64,000 nt of DNA from a virus: IMG/VR virus record IMGVR_UViG_3300009506_000004, positions 62,001-126,000 of that record; one strand, 5' to 3'. Both the position numbers and the translations under genes were made by a program. How positions within the stretch are numbered: the first letter of the stretch is position 1; each line of letters begins with the position of its first letter. Positions 4,878 to 57,026 of the stretch are shown in pieces. The notes below the pieces were generated by a model. That model was not told the DNA's origin and made no database searches. It saw only the letters and a list, made by a program, of their open reading frames with translations.

Positions 4878-5365
4878 TTTAAAAATTTCACATTCCCAAA
4901 AACAGTATCATGAATAAAATTATCAAGGTCATATTTTGCAAATTGAGAATAGCATACTTTTCCCCACTCTTTTACAGAATTATTATAATCAGTAGAATGT
5001 TTTAATGCCAATGACCATTGTTCTCCATCACCTGTAAAAATTACGGATAGTATACCACGATTCTCTTTACTTTGTAGGCAACGTAAATTATGTGGAAAAC
5101 CCATCACATCTATTATATCAAATTCTGGACCAGCGCATAACATTCCAAAATGCATCATCCCAAATAAATTACTTAATTCGTCGATCTTTGAGGTATTACC
5201 GCAGTCATTAAATAGTTTAAAATAAGCTAATAAATAAGCATATTTGCTTTTTGGTCTCTTACAATTTTGGAGTGTTGCAGCTGTATTTATACCTATTAAC
5301 TGTTCACAAAAGGAGTGGAAAGAATCATTCAAAGTACTTATAGAAATCATTTCAGCATGTATCAT
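4874..5365 (-). CDS. Hypothetical protein (163 aa)
   Basis: Not recognised. Cysteine residues are scattered and there is no signal or membrane segment. It overlaps the HNH gene by 4 nt and the upstream metallopeptidase gene by 14 nt, so it is part of the same leftward transcript. The segment FGMMHFGMLCAGPEFDIIDVMGF is hydrophobic but broken by charges, so probably a buried core and not a membrane helix. Confidence 0.6.
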   Translation of the reverse strand: MIHAEMISISTLNDSFHSFCEQLIGINTAATLQNCKRPKSKYAYLLAYFKLFNDCGNTSKIDELSNLFGMMHFGMLCAGPEFDIIDVMGFPHNLRCLQSKENRGILSVIFTGDGEQWSLALKHSTDYNNSVKEWGKVCYSQFAKYDLDNFIHDTVFGNVKFLK

Positions 5366-36461: not shown

Positions 36462-37838
36462 TTAACCGAGCAATAGAACGGCAAGGTTGTCGTCAAGGAC
36501 AGCTGTTCCGCACAGCAAATCCAACACAACCTTAGTTCCACCAGCATCGATATCATACTGCATAGTAGCGCGCATCGCAATGTCATTATAAGATGAAACA
36601 AAGGATCGAGCACCTTCAGACGCATCCGGTCGCGCTAATGGTCGAGTGACCAACGCAAACGAATTACGATGAAATGCAACATTGAAATCACCAGCTGGGC
36701 CAGGGAAGGCACCATCGCCATCAGTTAACGCAAGATCAAGGGGTCGATCTAACAGAACCTTAACCTCAGTTGCACTAACTGTAATGGTTTCAATGACAGA
36801 ATATGTATGACGTGTCGTAGGTGTTGTACCAAATGCAATGAGCTGGCCAACTACAGGTGGTTTTCCAGATGTAAAACCATCAATACTAATATACTTAGCA
36901 TAACCAGCAGAGTAGTTACCATTAACATCAGCCATCATATAAACCGTGATAACAGCACCACTTTCAACATCATACTTAATAGCTTCGTTAAGTGTGGCAG
37001 CAGTTGTATCAGTTGTGTCATCAACTTCAGCTGTGATCCAAGTTGGCTGATCATTACCGGCCAGATTGGCAAATTCACCAACGTTACAAACATAATCTGT
37101 AACATCAAACGCTGTCAACGAACCAGTTGTACCCGCAGCAATAGCCGCAGTAGTAGCACCAAGAACTGTGTCACGCGAAGCAGTTGATAATACACCATTC
37201 ACATTCTGGTCCATGAATGTGTCAAAACTACCAATACGGCCTAACAAAGCCTCTTCCAGCGCTGTTCCACCGTCACCACGTTTTTCTGAACTAACAAAAA
37301 GTTCAGTCTTTAGCATAGCTGTTTCGGACCCTGGAGCCAAAACTAACTTACGACCCGATGTATGGGCTAATGTTCGGTTTAACTTCTCTCGGGCTTCCAG
37401 CACAGTATCCCAAGCATTGCTGGATGTAAGATTAAGTAACCGCCCAACACGATCTTCAGGGTCACCGATCAGCGCATGAGCCATACGACCGACTATAGCA
37501 CGATCAATACCATTACCCATGGCTTTCATACCTGGGACTAAATGAACCTGAATAAGATCTTGCAAAGACTTCGACCGCTCACCATCCTTAATAACAAAAC
37601 CAGCATACATATGCTGATTAAGTGGAACTTGTACGTTAGTAACAACAGCATCATTATACTCAGTTGTATCAGAATCTGTCTTTCGATACACCTTCATATC
37701 AGCTGGCTTACGTGTATTAACCACGTCACCATAATCTTTAACTTCCATCGAGAAATCCCGATGAACTAACATACCCATAATCATGTTCTCTTCGAGAACA
37801 GCAATAGACTCCCGTGCCCAAACTTCTGGGACAAGCAT
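36462..37838 (-). CDS. Major capsid protein, P22 coat-like (exon 2; frame opens at 37838)
   Basis: The frame from ATG 37838 gives 458 residues: LVPEVWARESIAVLEENMIM, an HK97-like core, an inserted beta domain (about 210-350) and FHRNSFALVTRPL near the C-terminus, as in P22-type coat proteins. This ATG has no ribosome site and follows a stop directly. The first codon is better read as the last bases of a group I intron, making exon 2 36462-37835. Joined to exon 1 (38714-38764) the protein is 474 residues. Codons are richer in G/C at third positions than its neighbours, consistent with high expression. Confidence 0.85.
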   Translation of the reverse strand: MLVPEVWARESIAVLEENMIMGMLVHRDFSMEVKDYGDVVNTRKPADMKVYRKTDSDTTEYNDAVVTNVQVPLNQHMYAGFVIKDGERSKSLQDLIQVHLVPGMKAMGNGIDRAIVGRMAHALIGDPEDRVGRLLNLTSSNAWDTVLEAREKLNRTLAHTSGRKLVLAPGSETAMLKTELFVSSEKRGDGGTALEEALLGRIGSFDTFMDQNVNGVLSTASRDTVLGATTAAIAAGTTGSLTAFDVTDYVCNVGEFANLAGNDQPTWITAEVDDTTDTTAATLNEAIKYDVESGAVITVYMMADVNGNYSAGYAKYISIDGFTSGKPPVVGQLIAFGTTPTTRHTYSVIETITVSATEVKVLLDRPLDLALTDGDGAFPGPAGDFNVAFHRNSFALVTRPLARPDASEGARSFVSSYNDIAMRATMQYDIDAGGTKVVLDLLCGTAVLDDNLAVLLLG

Positions 37839-38713
37839 TTATGTTAACTATATATTTCTATATAGATCAGACTATATCTTCATCAACCAATTATAGCAAG
37901 ATTGCAATTTATGTTTTGTAATTTCATTTTCTTGTTCTAGTATTGTATTACATTTTCTACATACAACACCTAATACTTTATTGTCTACGTGATGTATATA
38001 AGGTAATGTAAGAATATTATTACAACAATCACAATTTTTTGAATTTCTCAAAATTGATACTTGTTCAAATGTTAAATTATAAACATATGTTTTGACAAGT
38101 ATTTTATAGCAATCTTTACATGTTGCATATAAACCATATTTTCCACTTTGGTATTTTTGTTTATAGAAATTCTTCTTTGGTTTATATTGTTTGCAGCATT
38201 TGCATAATCGTTGAGTTGCGCGTGTAGTCGTTGAGGGGTCAGGTTCCTTTTGCTGACTTCCCTGCTGATTGACTCTATTGAATAGATTTTTACGATCTTT
38301 TTGTATAAATTCTAAACAGGACTTTATACGGTGTAAATCTTCTTTTGTTTCTTGTCCTAATGTTATATTACAATAATGACAAAGAATACCTTTAACCTTA
38401 TGCTCAACATGATGAAGATTCTTTTTTAAATTTGTTAAATCTTCACCACAACACATACATAAAGATTCTTTTCTAAAATTTATTACTTGTTCGCATGTAA
38501 TACCAAGTCTATTAGCTGCTTTTTTAATAGACCAGCATTGTTTACAAATATTTCTATATTTTTTTGAATCTTTTCTAAAATGATATTCTTTAATAGATTT
38601 ATTTTTTTTACATTTTGAACAAATTTTAAATATCGTACTATTCACTTATCAAGTTGTTCCAGCATATAGCGCAATTCTTATTAGAAATCGCTTTCTAATA
38701 GGCCCATGTTCTA
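37836..38713 (-). ncRNA. Group I intron interrupting the major capsid gene
   Basis: Core pairings visible on the leftward strand: P2 (TATTAGAAA/TTTCTAATA, 38679-38700); P3 (GAATTGCGC 38677-38669 with GCGCAACTC 38221-38213, one mismatch); P4 (TGCTG 38664 with CAGCA 38267); P6 (GTCAG/CTGAC); P7 (GACTA 38229-38225 with TAGTC 37874-37870 in the S-type AAGATATAGTC). P1 pairs exon GCU with GGC, giving a U-G at the 5' site. The intron ends in G. P10 pairs four of five positions. Length 878 nt. Exact splice sites are inferred. Confidence 0.85.
37872..38645 (-). CDS. Intron-encoded double endonuclease VII-like protein (257 aa)
   Basis: Two treble-clef HNH/Endo VII domains. Domain 1 (residues about 8-115) has CSKCKKNKS...CKQC, CMCCGEDL and HHVEHKVKGILCHYCNITLG. 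Domain 2 (about 148-255) has CKCCKQYKP...CKDC, CDCCNN and HHVDNKVLGVVCRKCNTIL. Residues about 125-145 between them are encoded by the ribozyme P4-P6-P7-P3 core, and the stop lies in the S element. It starts at GTG 38645. It is presumably a homing endonuclease for the intron-less coat gene. Whether one chain or two proteins are made is open. Confidence 0.8.
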   Translation of the reverse strand: MNSTIFKICSKCKKNKSIKEYHFRKDSKKYRNICKQCWSIKKAANRLGITCEQVINFRKESLCMCCGEDLTNLKKNLHHVEHKVKGILCHYCNITLGQETKEDLHRIKSCLEFIQKDRKNLFNRVNQQGSQQKEPDPSTTTRATQRLCKCCKQYKPKKNFYKQKYQSGKYGLYATCKDCYKILVKTYVYNLTFEQVSILRNSKNCDCCNNILTLPYIHHVDNKVLGVVCRKCNTILEQENEITKHKLQSCYNWLMKI

Positions 38714-38764
38714 AGCGTCGTTATCATTGGCATAAGAAGCCAAAATTGTGTAAAAATAAAACAT
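38714..38764 (-). CDS. Major capsid protein exon 1
   Basis: ATG 38764 has GGGAG eight nt upstream, followed by 16 further codons ending ASYANDNDA. The zero frame then meets TAG, the first bases of the intron. Removing 37836-38713 joins NDA to LVPEVWARES in frame. This supplies the ribosome site and N-terminal arm missing from the downstream frame. The opening resembles the start of the scaffold protein (M-FWYEILASY). Confidence 0.75.
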
Positions 38765-38832: not shown

Positions 38833-39693
38833 TTAACGTCTTTTATAATTCAAACCTAAAGCGGCTGGGTTCTCTTTTCTAAGTTTGAACCATTGTTCGT
38901 CTGTTAATCGTTTATGATCAACATTCCCAGACCCGATATTACCACCATCGGTAGCGTTTTGGGAGCCAATACCTTCTCGAATATTATTCTTGAAGAAATT
39001 GCCCCATTGTGAAGGATTCTTTTTCATATACTCAACGGCTTCATCAGGCGTCATTTGAAGTCGTTCAGATACACCAGTATCCTCATTTTTAACTGTCATC
39101 GTGACCATAGGAATCAGTTGGCCAGTTGGCTGTCCTTTTGCATCTTTAGCTTCTACTAATTCTGTTTGACCACGTAATTGAACAATAATTTGCGAAGGAT
39201 TAAAAGCCTCATGCTTAATAGCAGCAGATTGAAGTGCTTGGAAAATAGTAGATTCAGTATATCTATCTTCCCAAACTTTAGCTGCTTTTGTTGCTTCTTC
39301 TAATTGCTGCACATATTTATCTTCTTTTTGTTTATTATCGTAAGCAATCTGTTGTTCCTTTGTACGATGTCTAGCCTGAAGATCATCTAATTCCTTCTGT
39401 AATTTTTCTTTTTCTTCTTTACTAACATTTTGATTTCTCAAAAGTTCTTGATAACTAGTTTCTAATGAAGAATATTTATCTTGATGTTTTCTACGGTCTT
39501 CAGCTAAGAACTTATTGACATCATCTTGTGTGAATGTTTTACCAGAATCTGTTCCTTTACCAGAATCTGTTCCTTTACCAGAATCTGTTCCTTTACCAGA
39601 ATCTGTTTCTTTACCAGAATCTATTCCATCACCAGAATCTGTTCCATCACCACTGCCTTCATAAGAAGCTAATATTTCATACCAAAATAACAT
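38833..39693 (-). CDS. Capsid scaffolding protein (286 aa)
   Basis: Acidic and helix-rich, directly upstream of the coat gene. A hexapeptide repeat of the TDSGKG type (about six copies, 18-bp DNA repeats) near residues 15-50 is followed by FTQDDVNKFLAEDRRK and a coiled coil to about residue 140. The C-terminus is basic (KRLTDEQWFKLRKENP), as in scaffold coat-binding domains. ATG 39693 has GGAGG five nt upstream and is preferred over an in-frame start at 39726. Confidence 0.8.
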   Translation of the reverse strand: MLFWYEILASYEGSGDGTDSGDGIDSGKETDSGKGTDSGKGTDSGKGTDSGKTFTQDDVNKFLAEDRRKHQDKYSSLETSYQELLRNQNVSKEEKEKLQKELDDLQARHRTKEQQIAYDNKQKEDKYVQQLEEATKAAKVWEDRYTESTIFQALQSAAIKHEAFNPSQIIVQLRGQTELVEAKDAKGQPTGQLIPMVTMTVKNEDTGVSERLQMTPDEAVEYMKKNPSQWGNFFKNNIREGIGSQNATDGGNIGSGNVDHKRLTDEQWFKLRKENPAALGLNYKRR

Positions 39694-39761
39694 AAATTCC
39701 TCCAATTGGAGTATAAATGACCCCACACTAAGAATTAGTTTAAGCGCGGTGGGTAATCGCT

Positions 39762-45679: not shown

Positions 45680-46540
45680 TTACGGTGCTTCAATGAATAC
45701 AGCTTCTTCTAATATCTTTATTAAATAAGGGAAATCCTTTTGGGAAGCTGCATTTCTTTCAAATTTTACACCAATATCTTCAATTCTAATTGTAGAAAAA
45801 TCTTCAGGCATTGGTTCACTTTCTACCATAGCCCAATAAACACCAGCTTCTTTAGCCCATCGTACCATTCTCCTTACAGGGACGATAAGATTAAATTGTT
45901 CACCAGCGCCACGAACTAGCATCCCGACATATTTACCGTCTTTTAAATAAACTCCACCACCAGACGATCCAGGAAATGCAGTAACAGTAGTTTGGTCATA
46001 AACTATTTGGTCAATTAAACGTCCATGCTGAGAAATAACACCAGATGTTATAGAATTAGAACCCATTTCTCCTAAAAGAGAGCCACAATGCCATAGATCA
46101 CTTCCGATACTAGGAGGCTTTTCTTCAAGATAAAATTGAACACTACCTTTTGTTACAAAATTCTTAGAACGAATTTTAAGTAAAGCTAAATCTTCCTTTT
46201 CAGAATATTTTATAACTAAAGCATTCCATTCAGTTTTACCAACTGTACGACCATCTTCTATAATATGCTTAATGACCATAGCATCCTTAAATTCAACTAC
46301 AGTTCTTCGGGTACCTGTAGCAGGGTCAGTTACTTGCTTTTCAAATCGTAATCCATCAACTACGTGACCAGCTGTCCAAACGAATGTTTTACCATCACGT
46401 TGATAAAGAACACCACTCCCTTGACTCATACCAGCTCCAATTGTTACTGAAATATCTTGAAGATATTCAGCAGTCTCATTAGCTAAGCAAGCAGTGGCAA
46501 AAAATAACATTAAAAATAAAGCTGTTAACTTTGTCTTCAT
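45680..46540 (-). CDS. Secreted trypsin-like serine protease (286 aa)
   Basis: The N-terminal signal peptide (KLTALFLMLFFATACLA) is followed by a chymotrypsin-like domain: catalytic H in WTAGHVV, D in EDLALLKI, S in FPGSSGGGVY. It resembles the HtrA/DegP protease core without a PDZ domain. Phage-encoded periplasmic proteases are rare. A second one is at 52305. Possible roles are lysis, periplasmic protein turnover or surface modification. Its ATG overlaps the preceding thioredoxin-like gene. Confidence 0.75.
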   Translation of the reverse strand: MKTKLTALFLMLFFATACLANETAEYLQDISVTIGAGMSQGSGVLYQRDGKTFVWTAGHVVDGLRFEKQVTDPATGTRRTVVEFKDAMVIKHIIEDGRTVGKTEWNALVIKYSEKEDLALLKIRSKNFVTKGSVQFYLEEKPPSIGSDLWHCGSLLGEMGSNSITSGVISQHGRLIDQIVYDQTTVTAFPGSSGGGVYLKDGKYVGMLVRGAGEQFNLIVPVRRMVRWAKEAGVYWAMVESEPMPEDFSTIRIEDIGVKFERNAASQKDFPYLIKILEEAVFIEAP

Positions 46541-51812: not shown

Positions 51813-52308
51813 GACAACCGGGTTAGATCCAAATAAACATCAAATTTTAGAATTTGCTGCTGTATTATGGACCTGTGATGATATTATGCAATGCCCATAT
51901 TTCTATAATATTATAATACCAAAAGGTGATATTATAGGGGAACCATATGCATTAATTATGAATATGCGTATTTTAAAAGCTATTATAGCTGGGAATGGGG
52001 TATCATTAGTACAAAATTTTGGAGATTTTACACATTGGTTGGAATATAATGGTATAAACCCGCATAAAAAAGCTTATGTTATTGGTAAAAACTTTGGAAA
52101 TTTTGACCTCCAGTTTTTGAATAAAATCCCAGATTGGCCTGGAAGTTATTTCCATCATAGGATTTTAGATGTAGGTTCATTATACGCAACACGTGATGGT
52201 ATACCTAGTACTGATTATCTCCCAAAACCACCTATAACTGAAGAGCCACATTACGCATTACATGATGCTAGATTAGACCTTTTTGCTGTTATGAAGAAAT
52301 TAAAATGA
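51790..52308 (+). CDS. DEDDh 3'-5' exonuclease (172 aa)
   Basis: Exo I CSIDIETTGLDP, Exo II VIGKNFGNFDLQFL, Exo III HYALHDARLDLFAV (H-x4-D). This is a stand-alone epsilon/RNase T-type domain, distinct in sequence from the one at 12926. Two such exonucleases in one phage window suggests separate proofreading and RNA-processing roles, as inference. Confidence 0.8.
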   Translation: MYCSIDIETTGLDPNKHQILEFAAVLWTCDDIMQCPYFYNIIIPKGDIIGEPYALIMNMRILKAIIAGNGVSLVQNFGDFTHWLEYNGINPHKKAYVIGKNFGNFDLQFLNKIPDWPGSYFHHRILDVGSLYATRDGIPSTDYLPKPPITEEPHYALHDARLDLFAVMKKLK

Positions 52309-52892
52309 TAGTTATACTTTTAGTCCTTATAATTTGTTCTACTACTTATGCAACTCCTCCCTTGTATGCTGTTAGAATTTGTTGTTATGATAATGATGAT
52401 GCTATAATAGATAGTTGTGGTAGTGGTTCTCTCATAAATAAAGAATATGTGATAACAAACCACCATGTAATAAAGGATGCAAGACTTGTAAGAGTTTTAT
52501 TTAAAGATTGGCAATACGTCCCTGGAAGAATCGTTAAAAAAGATGCAAAAGTTGATTTGGCTTTAATTAAAATTCCAGAACAATCCAGAACTACTATTAG
52601 TTTTGCACCAAAGACAAGTAAAGGTGATATAGTTACATTATTTGGATATGGACAAGGTTTACCGGGAAAAGGAGTAGGTATTATAAATAGTTTTGTACGT
52701 CGTACACAAAATGGACCATTAATAAATATGGAAATTGATGGTTATGCAGTACGCTCTGGAGATTCTGGTGGCCCCGTAATAGATAGTAAAGGTAGACTAT
52801 CTGGTGTTATTTTTGGTGCTACTAAAGATGAAAGTTATGCTGTTCGTATTGAAACTGTCAAATCTTTTATAAAAGGATATATTGATGATTAA
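52305..52892 (+). CDS. Secreted trypsin-like serine protease 2 (195 aa)
   Basis: Signal peptide (MIVILLVLIICSTTYA) then a compact serine protease domain: H in VITNHHVIKDA, D in VDLALIKI, S in RSGDSGGPVIDS. It lacks the extra C-terminal part of the 45680 protease and is only distantly similar. Cysteines in RICCYDNDDAIIDSC may form a disulfide. It lies in the early small-gene block, not with lysis genes, so an early periplasmic role is possible. Confidence 0.75.
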   Translation: MIVILLVLIICSTTYATPPLYAVRICCYDNDDAIIDSCGSGSLINKEYVITNHHVIKDARLVRVLFKDWQYVPGRIVKKDAKVDLALIKIPEQSRTTISFAPKTSKGDIVTLFGYGQGLPGKGVGIINSFVRRTQNGPLINMEIDGYAVRSGDSGGPVIDSKGRLSGVIFGATKDESYAVRIETVKSFIKGYIDD

Positions 52893-54099: not shown

Positions 54100-54491
54100 T
54101 GTACATAAGTTTAAATATATTAAATAATGCTGTTGTTGAGAATCCTGATGGCAGTAAACAATCAGTACAAGGATTACTTAAACTTAATATAAATGTTGAC
54201 AATATTAATTTTATTATAAAACCACTTGGGCAGCCAGCCCTTGTTGTATCCAATGGTGTAAATTTTATAGCAACAGATAACATACCAGAAAATATTATTG
54301 GATTACATAGATTTCAAATTAAGGAAGGTGGGTTTGTTTGGCTTAGTCCAAAACATATAGTCTATTATGCAAGCACTGACGAAATAGGAATCTATCTTAT
54401 AGGTTTTACTGGTGGAAATAGAGTTTCTATTAAGGCAACTGGCCAAGAAGTTCATGATATGATTTCTGTAAGTATAATAACAACACCATGA
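54099..54491 (+). CDS. Hypothetical beta-rich protein (130 aa)
   Basis: Not recognised. Successive strands (LLKLNINVDNINFIIKPLG, RVSIKATGQEVHDMISVSII) suggest a beta-sandwich. Shares its last bases with the start of the Tat-signal gene. Confidence 0.45.
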   Translation: MYISLNILNNAVVENPDGSKQSVQGLLKLNINVDNINFIIKPLGQPALVVSNGVNFIATDNIPENIIGLHRFQIKEGGFVWLSPKHIVYYASTDEIGIYLIGFTGGNRVSIKATGQEVHDMISVSIITTP

Positions 54492-54733
54492 AAAGAAGAA
54501 ATTTTTTAAAATTAGCGTCATTAGCTCCTTTAGTATTTTTAACACCATTACCTAAATTAGCACCAAAACCACAAGGAACACTTTGGACTACACACCAATT
54601 TGAAGAAAATGTAGTTATTAAAAATGGTGGACCATTAGAATGGTGTATAGCAGAACGCTGGGCTGAAGAAAGTTTAAGTATATTAGAAGAAAATATGATA
54701 ATATCAGAATTAATTCATAGGGATTTTATATGA
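54488..54733 (+). CDS. Tat-signal protein whose C-terminus resembles the coat-protein N-terminus (81 aa)
   Basis: The N-terminus KRRNFLKLASLAPLVFL is a good twin-arginine signal (RRxFLK plus moderate hydrophobic core). The C-terminal 26 residues (ERWAEESLSILEENMIISEL onward, ending HRDF) match 16 of 26 positions of the coat-protein start (EVWARESIAVLEENMIMGML onward). The codons differ, so it is a diverged homologue, not a recent copy. It ends where the coat match is just beginning. It could be a truncated coat-like remnant fused to a signal, or a decoy or adaptor. Confidence 0.6.
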   Translation: MKRRNFLKLASLAPLVFLTPLPKLAPKPQGTLWTTHQFEENVVIKNGGPLEWCIAERWAEESLSILEENMIISELIHRDFI

Positions 54734-55773: not shown

Positions 55774-55944
55774 ATGTTTGGAATCGGGCCGATGGAGCTA
55801 TCAATTATCGGAGTTGTGGCTGTTCTTCTCTTTGGAAATAGGCTTCCTGGGGTAGCTAGATCTATAGGGCAGTCCTTTCATGAATTAAAGCGTGGGCTTA
55901 ATGAGGCAATTGAATATGACGACAATAACAATAGCAGTGGTTAA
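55774..55944 (+). CDS. tatA: TatA-like twin-arginine translocase subunit (56 aa)
   Basis: The product starts MFGIGPMELSIIGVVAVLLF, followed by GNRLPGVARSIGQSFHELKR. It shows every TatA hallmark: a short N-terminal helix (E8 in the polar N-terminal part), the FG hinge, LP, then an amphipathic helix with conserved F, E and K/R, and a short polar tail. In bacteria TatA multimerises to form the pore that moves folded, Tat-signal proteins. It has AAGGAG seven nt upstream of the ATG. The gene is richer in G/C than its neighbours, suggesting acquisition from a cellular source. I know of no established phage-borne tatA like this. Confidence 0.85.
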   Translation: MFGIGPMELSIIGVVAVLLFGNRLPGVARSIGQSFHELKRGLNEAIEYDDNNNSSG

Positions 55945-56546: not shown

Positions 56547-57026
56547 ATGTTAAGACGAGATCTTTTAAAATTTTTTGCTGCATTAGCTGTAGCACCAATA
56601 TCTTCTTGTGTTAAGTCAGATGAGCCAAATGTACTAGAAGGCTCATGGGCTATGTTAGGTATGCAACATAGCCTGAAAAATGGGGATTTATTGTTTTCTA
56701 CAGATAATACTGAATTATTAGTTAGACCAATTGATGGTAGTTTAACCTATACTAGCCGCATAGATATGGATGCTCTTCCTAAAACTAGGGGTGAATTAGG
56801 ACTAGAACCAGAATTCAATGATATAATTGATTTTCATTTATTGGTTGTAACAGAGAATTTAGATTTAGAAAAATTTAAGAAAATAAAAGAATCGCCCAAA
56901 TTTAAGTTGACAACAAAAACAGATGGTCTATACTTCATATTGAATGAAGCTTATTGGACTTTGATAAATCATAACAAGCAAGGTGATATGGAATCATTAG
57001 AAATAGAGGGTCTTGCAAAATATTAA
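56547..57026 (+). CDS. Tat-signal lipoprotein-like protein (159 aa)
   Basis: The N-terminus MLRRDLLKFFAALAVAPISS, followed by C, has a twin-arginine motif (RRDLLK), a hydrophobic core and a lipobox-like ISSC. Export by Tat and lipid attachment at Cys21 would place it on a membrane. The mature domain is alpha/beta, has DLLFSTDNTELLVRP and ends at LEIEGLAKY. Not recognised. As the nearest exported protein to tatA, it is the first candidate substrate. Confidence 0.65.
   Translation: MLRRDLLKFFAALAVAPISSCVKSDEPNVLEGSWAMLGMQHSLKNGDLLFSTDNTELLVRPIDGSLTYTSRIDMDALPKTRGELGLEPEFNDIIDFHLLVVTENLDLEKFKKIKESPKFKLTTKTDGLYFILNEAYWTLINHNKQGDMESLEIEGLAKY

Follow-up and report, generated by a model that had tools for sequence, protein, structure and literature searches.

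In phage P22 the N-terminal arm of the coat protein (residues 2–30) contacts the scaffold via D14, E15 and E18; the basic hairpin at the scaffold C terminus is held in place by acidic residues of the arm helix (PMC9965877). A capsid-protein homologue can also redirect assembly: Ccm of SaPIbov5 does so with its helper phage (PMC8569155). Capsid arms themselves have so far been known as parts of the shell. Here we describe a coat arm detached from its shell protein and placed behind a leader of the Tat type. It is encoded in the window, by which we mean the whole 64,000-nucleotide stretch of viral DNA analysed, and it recurs in two other phages. We found no description of such a Tat + coat-arm protein in the open-access papers searched, a coverage outside which most subscription journals fall.

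A small ORF with a Tat-type leader

The ORF at 54488-54733 on the plus strand of the window encodes 81 amino acids and reads MKRRNFLKLASLAPLVFLTPLPKLAPKPQGTLWTTHQFEENVVIKNGGPLEWCIAERWAEESLSILEENMIISELIHRDFI. We divide it as follows:

54488..54733, plus strand: Tat-arm gene, 81 aa; ATGA overlaps both neighbours (upstream gene end 54491, downstream start 54730)
54488..54562, plus strand: putative Tat signal peptide MKRRNFLKLASLAPLVFLTPLPKLA; RRNFLK motif and hydrophobic run
54563..54643, plus strand: linker, residues 26-52, without detected homology
54644..54727, plus strand: coat N-arm module CIAERWAEESLSILEENMIISELIHRDF, residues 53-80, homologous to the coat arm

By its ATGA overlaps the gene is embedded in an operon-like gene row. 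The leader opens with MKRRNFLK, continues into the hydrophobic run and may be cleaved after KLA. The short Pfam model TAT_signal (PF10518) gives 11.2 bits on this protein, under its cut-off of 22.7, so that the Tat call is made from the twin-arginine motif together with the hydrophobic stretch; we regard the ORF as a putative Tat substrate, its export being predicted from the leader. The earlier note had placed a twin-arginine leader 40 residues ahead of the arm. The leader motif is there, and the distance is longer than stated: the arginine pair is residues 3-4 and the arm residues 53-80, which leaves about 48 residues in between. The HK97 core (E-loop, P-domain and A-domain) is absent from the 81 residues: homology stops at HRDF, and no Pfam coat model matches.

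Homology to the N-terminal arm of P22-type coat proteins

The coat gene of the same phage, called at 36462-37838 on the minus strand, encodes a P22-type major capsid protein (PF11651 P22_CoatProtein, E 4e-26; phrog_283, E 7e-51). Aligned with the start of this coat (...EVWARESIAVLEENMIMGMLVHRDF), the window arm has 16 of 28 residues identical and shares 7 of 28 codons; identity is 57% in protein and equally in DNA (48/84). When the 129,439-base virus record was searched with the Tat-arm protein, only the protein itself and the coat matched (the latter with E 3.8e-7), and across the record two arms are detected, those of the Tat-arm and the coat.

For a more sensitive comparison we used an arm profile made of coat arms only, with all Tat proteins left out. 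It recognises the window ORF as bearing an arm of the P22 type (PF11651) with 54.9 bits (E 5.7e-16); the best-scoring unrelated ORF gets 4.9 bits, and the best of 20 shuffled-ORF sets 10.3 bits. As 54.9 bits stand against at most 10.3 in shuffled proteins, the similarity is far beyond chance and reflects true homology: judged by these scores, the segment is a genuine homologue of the P22-type coat N-arm, and the coat-arm similarity put forward in the earlier note is borne out. The same profile recovers all three Tat-arms described below, with E values of 2e-20, 6e-16 and 1e-13. Nothing showed the resemblance to be a short motif widespread in unrelated proteins. Nor did an intact longer gene appear: the search for a full-length version, which the note had proposed, found a longer form of the window Tat-arm in 0 of 35 coat-bearing relatives.

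The head genes of the window phage that concern the arm and its candidate partner are these:

36462..37835, minus strand: coat main exon (LVPEVWARESIAVLEENM...), which bears the homologous arm; PF11651 E 4e-26, phrog_283 E 7e-51
37836..38713, minus strand: probable group I intron within the coat gene, 878 bases; RF00028 3' end E 7e-5, under the gathering score
37872-38645, minus strand: endonuclease VII-like ORF inside the probable intron; Endonuclease_7 E 4e-4, below cut-off
38714..38764, minus strand: probable coat first exon MFYFYTILASYANDNDA, 17 residues, assigned from its match to the leader of relatives' coats
38833..39726, minus strand: putative scaffold with a conserved basic C-terminal tail (...LTDEQWFKLRKENPAALGLNYKRR), candidate arm partner; assigned from translation, position and tail conservation in relatives

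The coat gene (36462-38764, minus strand) is thus listed as probably split by a group I intron that holds the endonuclease VII-like ORF; the opening three bases of the coat ORF as called are the last three of the probable intron. The coat genes of two relatives, L034 (7749-8885) and L223 (639-911), are broken at a different site, right after ENMV, and are possibly interrupted by introns as well. Many coats of the clade (L020, L023, L027 and others) open with a short hydrophobic leader that carries no charge and ends in [CS][YF]ANDNDA, which somewhat resembles a signal peptide or cleavage site and is absent in the distant coat L038. Across the clade the tail of the putative scaffold is strongly conserved and basic (LTPEQYRKIRKENPELLGLRxKR).

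Recurrence in other phages

Tat-led arms are found in three distinct phages. A scan of arm-bearing loci gave the one in L134, a GC-rich phage of 136 kb (4895-5191, MISRRLFLGRV...DAFIPELWARESLAILEENMVLGNLVHRDF...). The search of 48 whole coat-bearing records gave another in L275 (6795-7076, MKRRSFLRVIG...DCFVPESWACDGLKVLQENMAIADIVHRDF...), read again in L276. L275 and L276 are identical across 13.7 kb round the Tat-arm gene and 20 kb round the coat, and we therefore count them as a single phage recovered from two metagenomes. A further 46 records searched whole, among them a few repeats of the 48, yielded no additional Tat-arm. Each of the three phages has its coat gene elsewhere in the genome.

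All three leaders combine RRxFL(K) with a hydrophobic region, as expected of Tat substrates: RRNFLK in the window, SRRLFL and KRRSFL in the others, with hydrophobic 13-mers of KD ~2.0-2.2. Every convincing second (non-coat) arm in the 48 + 46 whole-record searches is led by a Tat-type leader, while Tat-like leaders occur in just 9 of 2013 ORFs sampled from these phages, 4 of the 9 being the Tat-arms themselves. A joint occurrence of arm and leader by chance is very unlikely.

Wider searches added no further case. DNA patterns for Tat + arm run across IMG/VR returned, besides in-frame read-through, only L134 and the L275 phage; as a direct relative of the window ORF, IMG/VR offered only a match of the Tat leader in L001, the mature part of which is unrelated. 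Annotated phages searched by protein gave coats and chance matches and no Tat-arm, and bacterial and archaeal genomes a single coat locus, on a MAG contig. Most coat-bearing relatives in the searched records lack the gene, and only three Tat-arm lineages are known. The Tat + arm architecture is well supported, and we are highly confident that the window ORF represents a recurrent Tat + coat-arm gene.

Shared anatomy and conservation of the arm

The three proteins have one design: an RRxFL leader with its hydrophobic run, a linker varying in length and sequence, and a 28-residue arm. Since the P22 N-arm comprises residues 2-30, this module corresponds roughly in length to the whole structural arm. 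The residues E, W, A, L, L, E, N, M, H, R, D and F are invariant in the Tat-arms, and nearly all of them are near-invariant among 47 coats; the acidic pair is incompletely kept, L275 having LQEN. In none of the three is coat homology detectable past HRDF: the L134 and L275 tails fail to match the following coat segment, and an impression by eye that homology continues there was unsupported on testing. An 'LEW' upstream of the arm that is shared with the coats of L075 and L084 needs a gap to align and is probably chance.

The arms of the window and L275 hold residues found in no sampled coat, and so were probably altered after capture. Changes in the Tat-arms sit at columns that are variable in coats (p 0.001-0.014, values that assume independent columns and are only indicative). 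This avoidance of coat-conserved columns suggests that selection maintains it as a functional arm, although the diversity of the coats could account for part of the pattern by inheritance.

Genomic context

All three Tat-arm genes are placed among replication or accessory genes, away from the coat. Near the window gene lie TatA and another Tat-led ORF, which is lipoprotein-like, together with an exonuclease of the RNase T type and a trypsin-like protease; the L134 gene is flanked by a dNMP kinase and an exonuclease, and that of L275 is found upstream of a DNA polymerase, at a distance of a few kilobases. Overlaps of the kind usual in phage operons are present: the gene shares a few bases with its upstream neighbour in the window and L134, and in the window and L275 its end overlaps the start of the following gene. 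The linkers of the three phages are unlike one another, as are the flanking genes, and no partner gene is seen in common.

The trypsin-like protease (52305-52892, plus strand; PF13365, E 6e-20) has an apparent signal peptide, and an ORF at 45680-46540 (minus strand) is similar to it by eye. The second Tat-led ORF (56547-57026, plus strand) has a possible lipobox (MLRRDLLKFFAALAVAPISSCVKS). The phage-encoded TatA is at 55774-55944 (plus strand; PF02416, E 2e-9), with a second case in G081 (L353). The earlier note had coupled this TatA with the exported arm. TatA exceeds the cut-off in 2 of 26 records, those of the window and of G081, the latter without a detected Tat-arm; as the other Tat-arm phages have no TatA above the cut-off, TatA is placed outside the system, and the coupling is given up.

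Discussion

We consider it best, on balance and tentatively, a little short of an even bet, that a coat arm was captured on a Tat signal and acts on the partner of the arm at or across the inner membrane. The ORF would be a genuine accessory gene of the phage, in which a module of ~28 residues taken from a coat gene is set behind a Tat-type signal peptide. The arm may still bind its usual partner, which would be the basic tail at the scaffold C terminus or, on a neighbouring coat subunit, the groove that takes the arm; we give such binding an even chance. It is suggested by the conserved acidic LEENM of the arm and the basic scaffold tail of the clade, a pairing like that of P22. By analogy the EE of the arm may match D14/E15 of P22.

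It speaks against this reading that a coat arm acts in the cytoplasm: export would part it from what it binds, except where the partner travels with it or the leader serves as an anchor. The Tat pathway exports folded proteins, and bound partners can go along; a Tat-led arm could therefore tether or remove assembly proteins. The leader would take the binding activity of the arm to the inner membrane or across it, and its most likely targets would be scaffold or coat subunits, which the protein would tether, withdraw or take out of the cell interior with it ('piggyback'). Capsid assembly of the phage itself or of a competitor might be disturbed or steered as a result, although interference or steering at the membrane is in our judgement somewhat unlikely. 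The exported mimic of a capsid arm suggested in the earlier note fits this architecture, its export and action both being predictions from sequence.

Alternative origins have to be weighed against this. The same note had offered a coat paralogue truncated after its N-arm, that is, a decaying copy of the phage's own coat gene, and the presence of one motif twice in a genome, together with the uncommon ENMI variant common to the arm and the own coat, speaks for it. DNA identity to the own coat is nevertheless only 57% (48/84), with 7/28 codons in common; the window arm is closer to 55 of 100 other coat arms than to that of the own coat; and a tree of the arms puts the own coat inside a supported group of 8 with the window Tat-arm outside. 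As the arm neither groups with the own coat nor lacks closer arms, a recent truncation of that gene is rejected, and recurrence with different flanking genes argues the same way; a truncated own-coat paralogue is strongly disfavoured and in our view very improbable. The sequences instead indicate an arm captured from a coat gene, and not closest to the own coat, in all three phages. In the tree of 28 columns the three Tat-arms do not group together, and neither a single origin nor several is settled by so few columns. Recombination might also have joined a coat start to the start of a Tat leader with a functionless product. Phage genomes are mosaic, the window copy ends directly after HRDF, its linker resembles nothing known and most relatives lack the gene, all of which would suit such a chance fusion. 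We think it distinctly improbable, since three separate cases share one design and one end of homology, coat-conserved positions are kept while others moved past any sampled coat, and the reading frames are intact and set in by overlapping start and stop codons.

Two other readings accept a working protein and give it a different task. The arm might be reused as a periplasmic interaction helix in an exported protein that senses or regulates lysis or superinfection, in the manner of the T4 antiholin RI. The build resembles RI, in which a short domain behind a signal peptide is released to the periplasm (PMC8385771), and the Tat-arm is placed amid accessory genes; against this, no linked holin was identified short of a systematic search, and conservation tracks capsid constraints and not a new partner. 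We rate this reading no higher than the chance fusion. Alternatively, the leader could stay uncleaved and keep the arm on the cytoplasmic side, as a membrane anchor nucleating procapsid assembly of the phage itself. Some phages begin head assembly at the membrane, and a hydrophobic leader with an intact assembly arm would serve this purpose. Most coat-bearing relatives, however, do without a Tat-arm, the gene sits away from the head module, and a Tat-type motif exceeds what an anchor requires, which makes the anchor improbable, if less so than the RI-like regulator.

A recurrent detached, export-tagged arm suggests a portable binding module, used possibly against rival phages or for control of the phage's own assembly. 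The arm is also short enough to be synthesised easily as a peptide, and its partner is predicted. It is a speculative extension, and one we doubt, that phages repeatedly took capsid arms, often not of their own type, onto a Tat signal so that the exporter moves assembly proteins to or across the membrane as a capsid-directed weapon or control.

Among known phage proteins, T4 antiholin RI is likewise small and consists of a signal peptide followed by a short mature part (PMC8385771). Its signal peptide differs in that it can direct a Sec substrate, and RI acts on the T4 holin. We know of no coat homology in RI. With the N-arm of the P22-type, HK97-fold coat (PF11651/phrog_283) the Tat-arm shares the same 28 residues and the same near-invariant positions, whereas it has no E-loop, P-domain or A-domain, carries a Tat-type leader ahead of the arm and is coded away from the head genes. 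Its likeness to SaPIbov5 Ccm is that of a coat-related protein made besides the product of the phage's coat gene, with an action on assembly that for the Tat-arm is proposed; Ccm has the HK97 fold and is built into the shell as a subunit, whereas the Tat-arm is the arm alone with an export leader.
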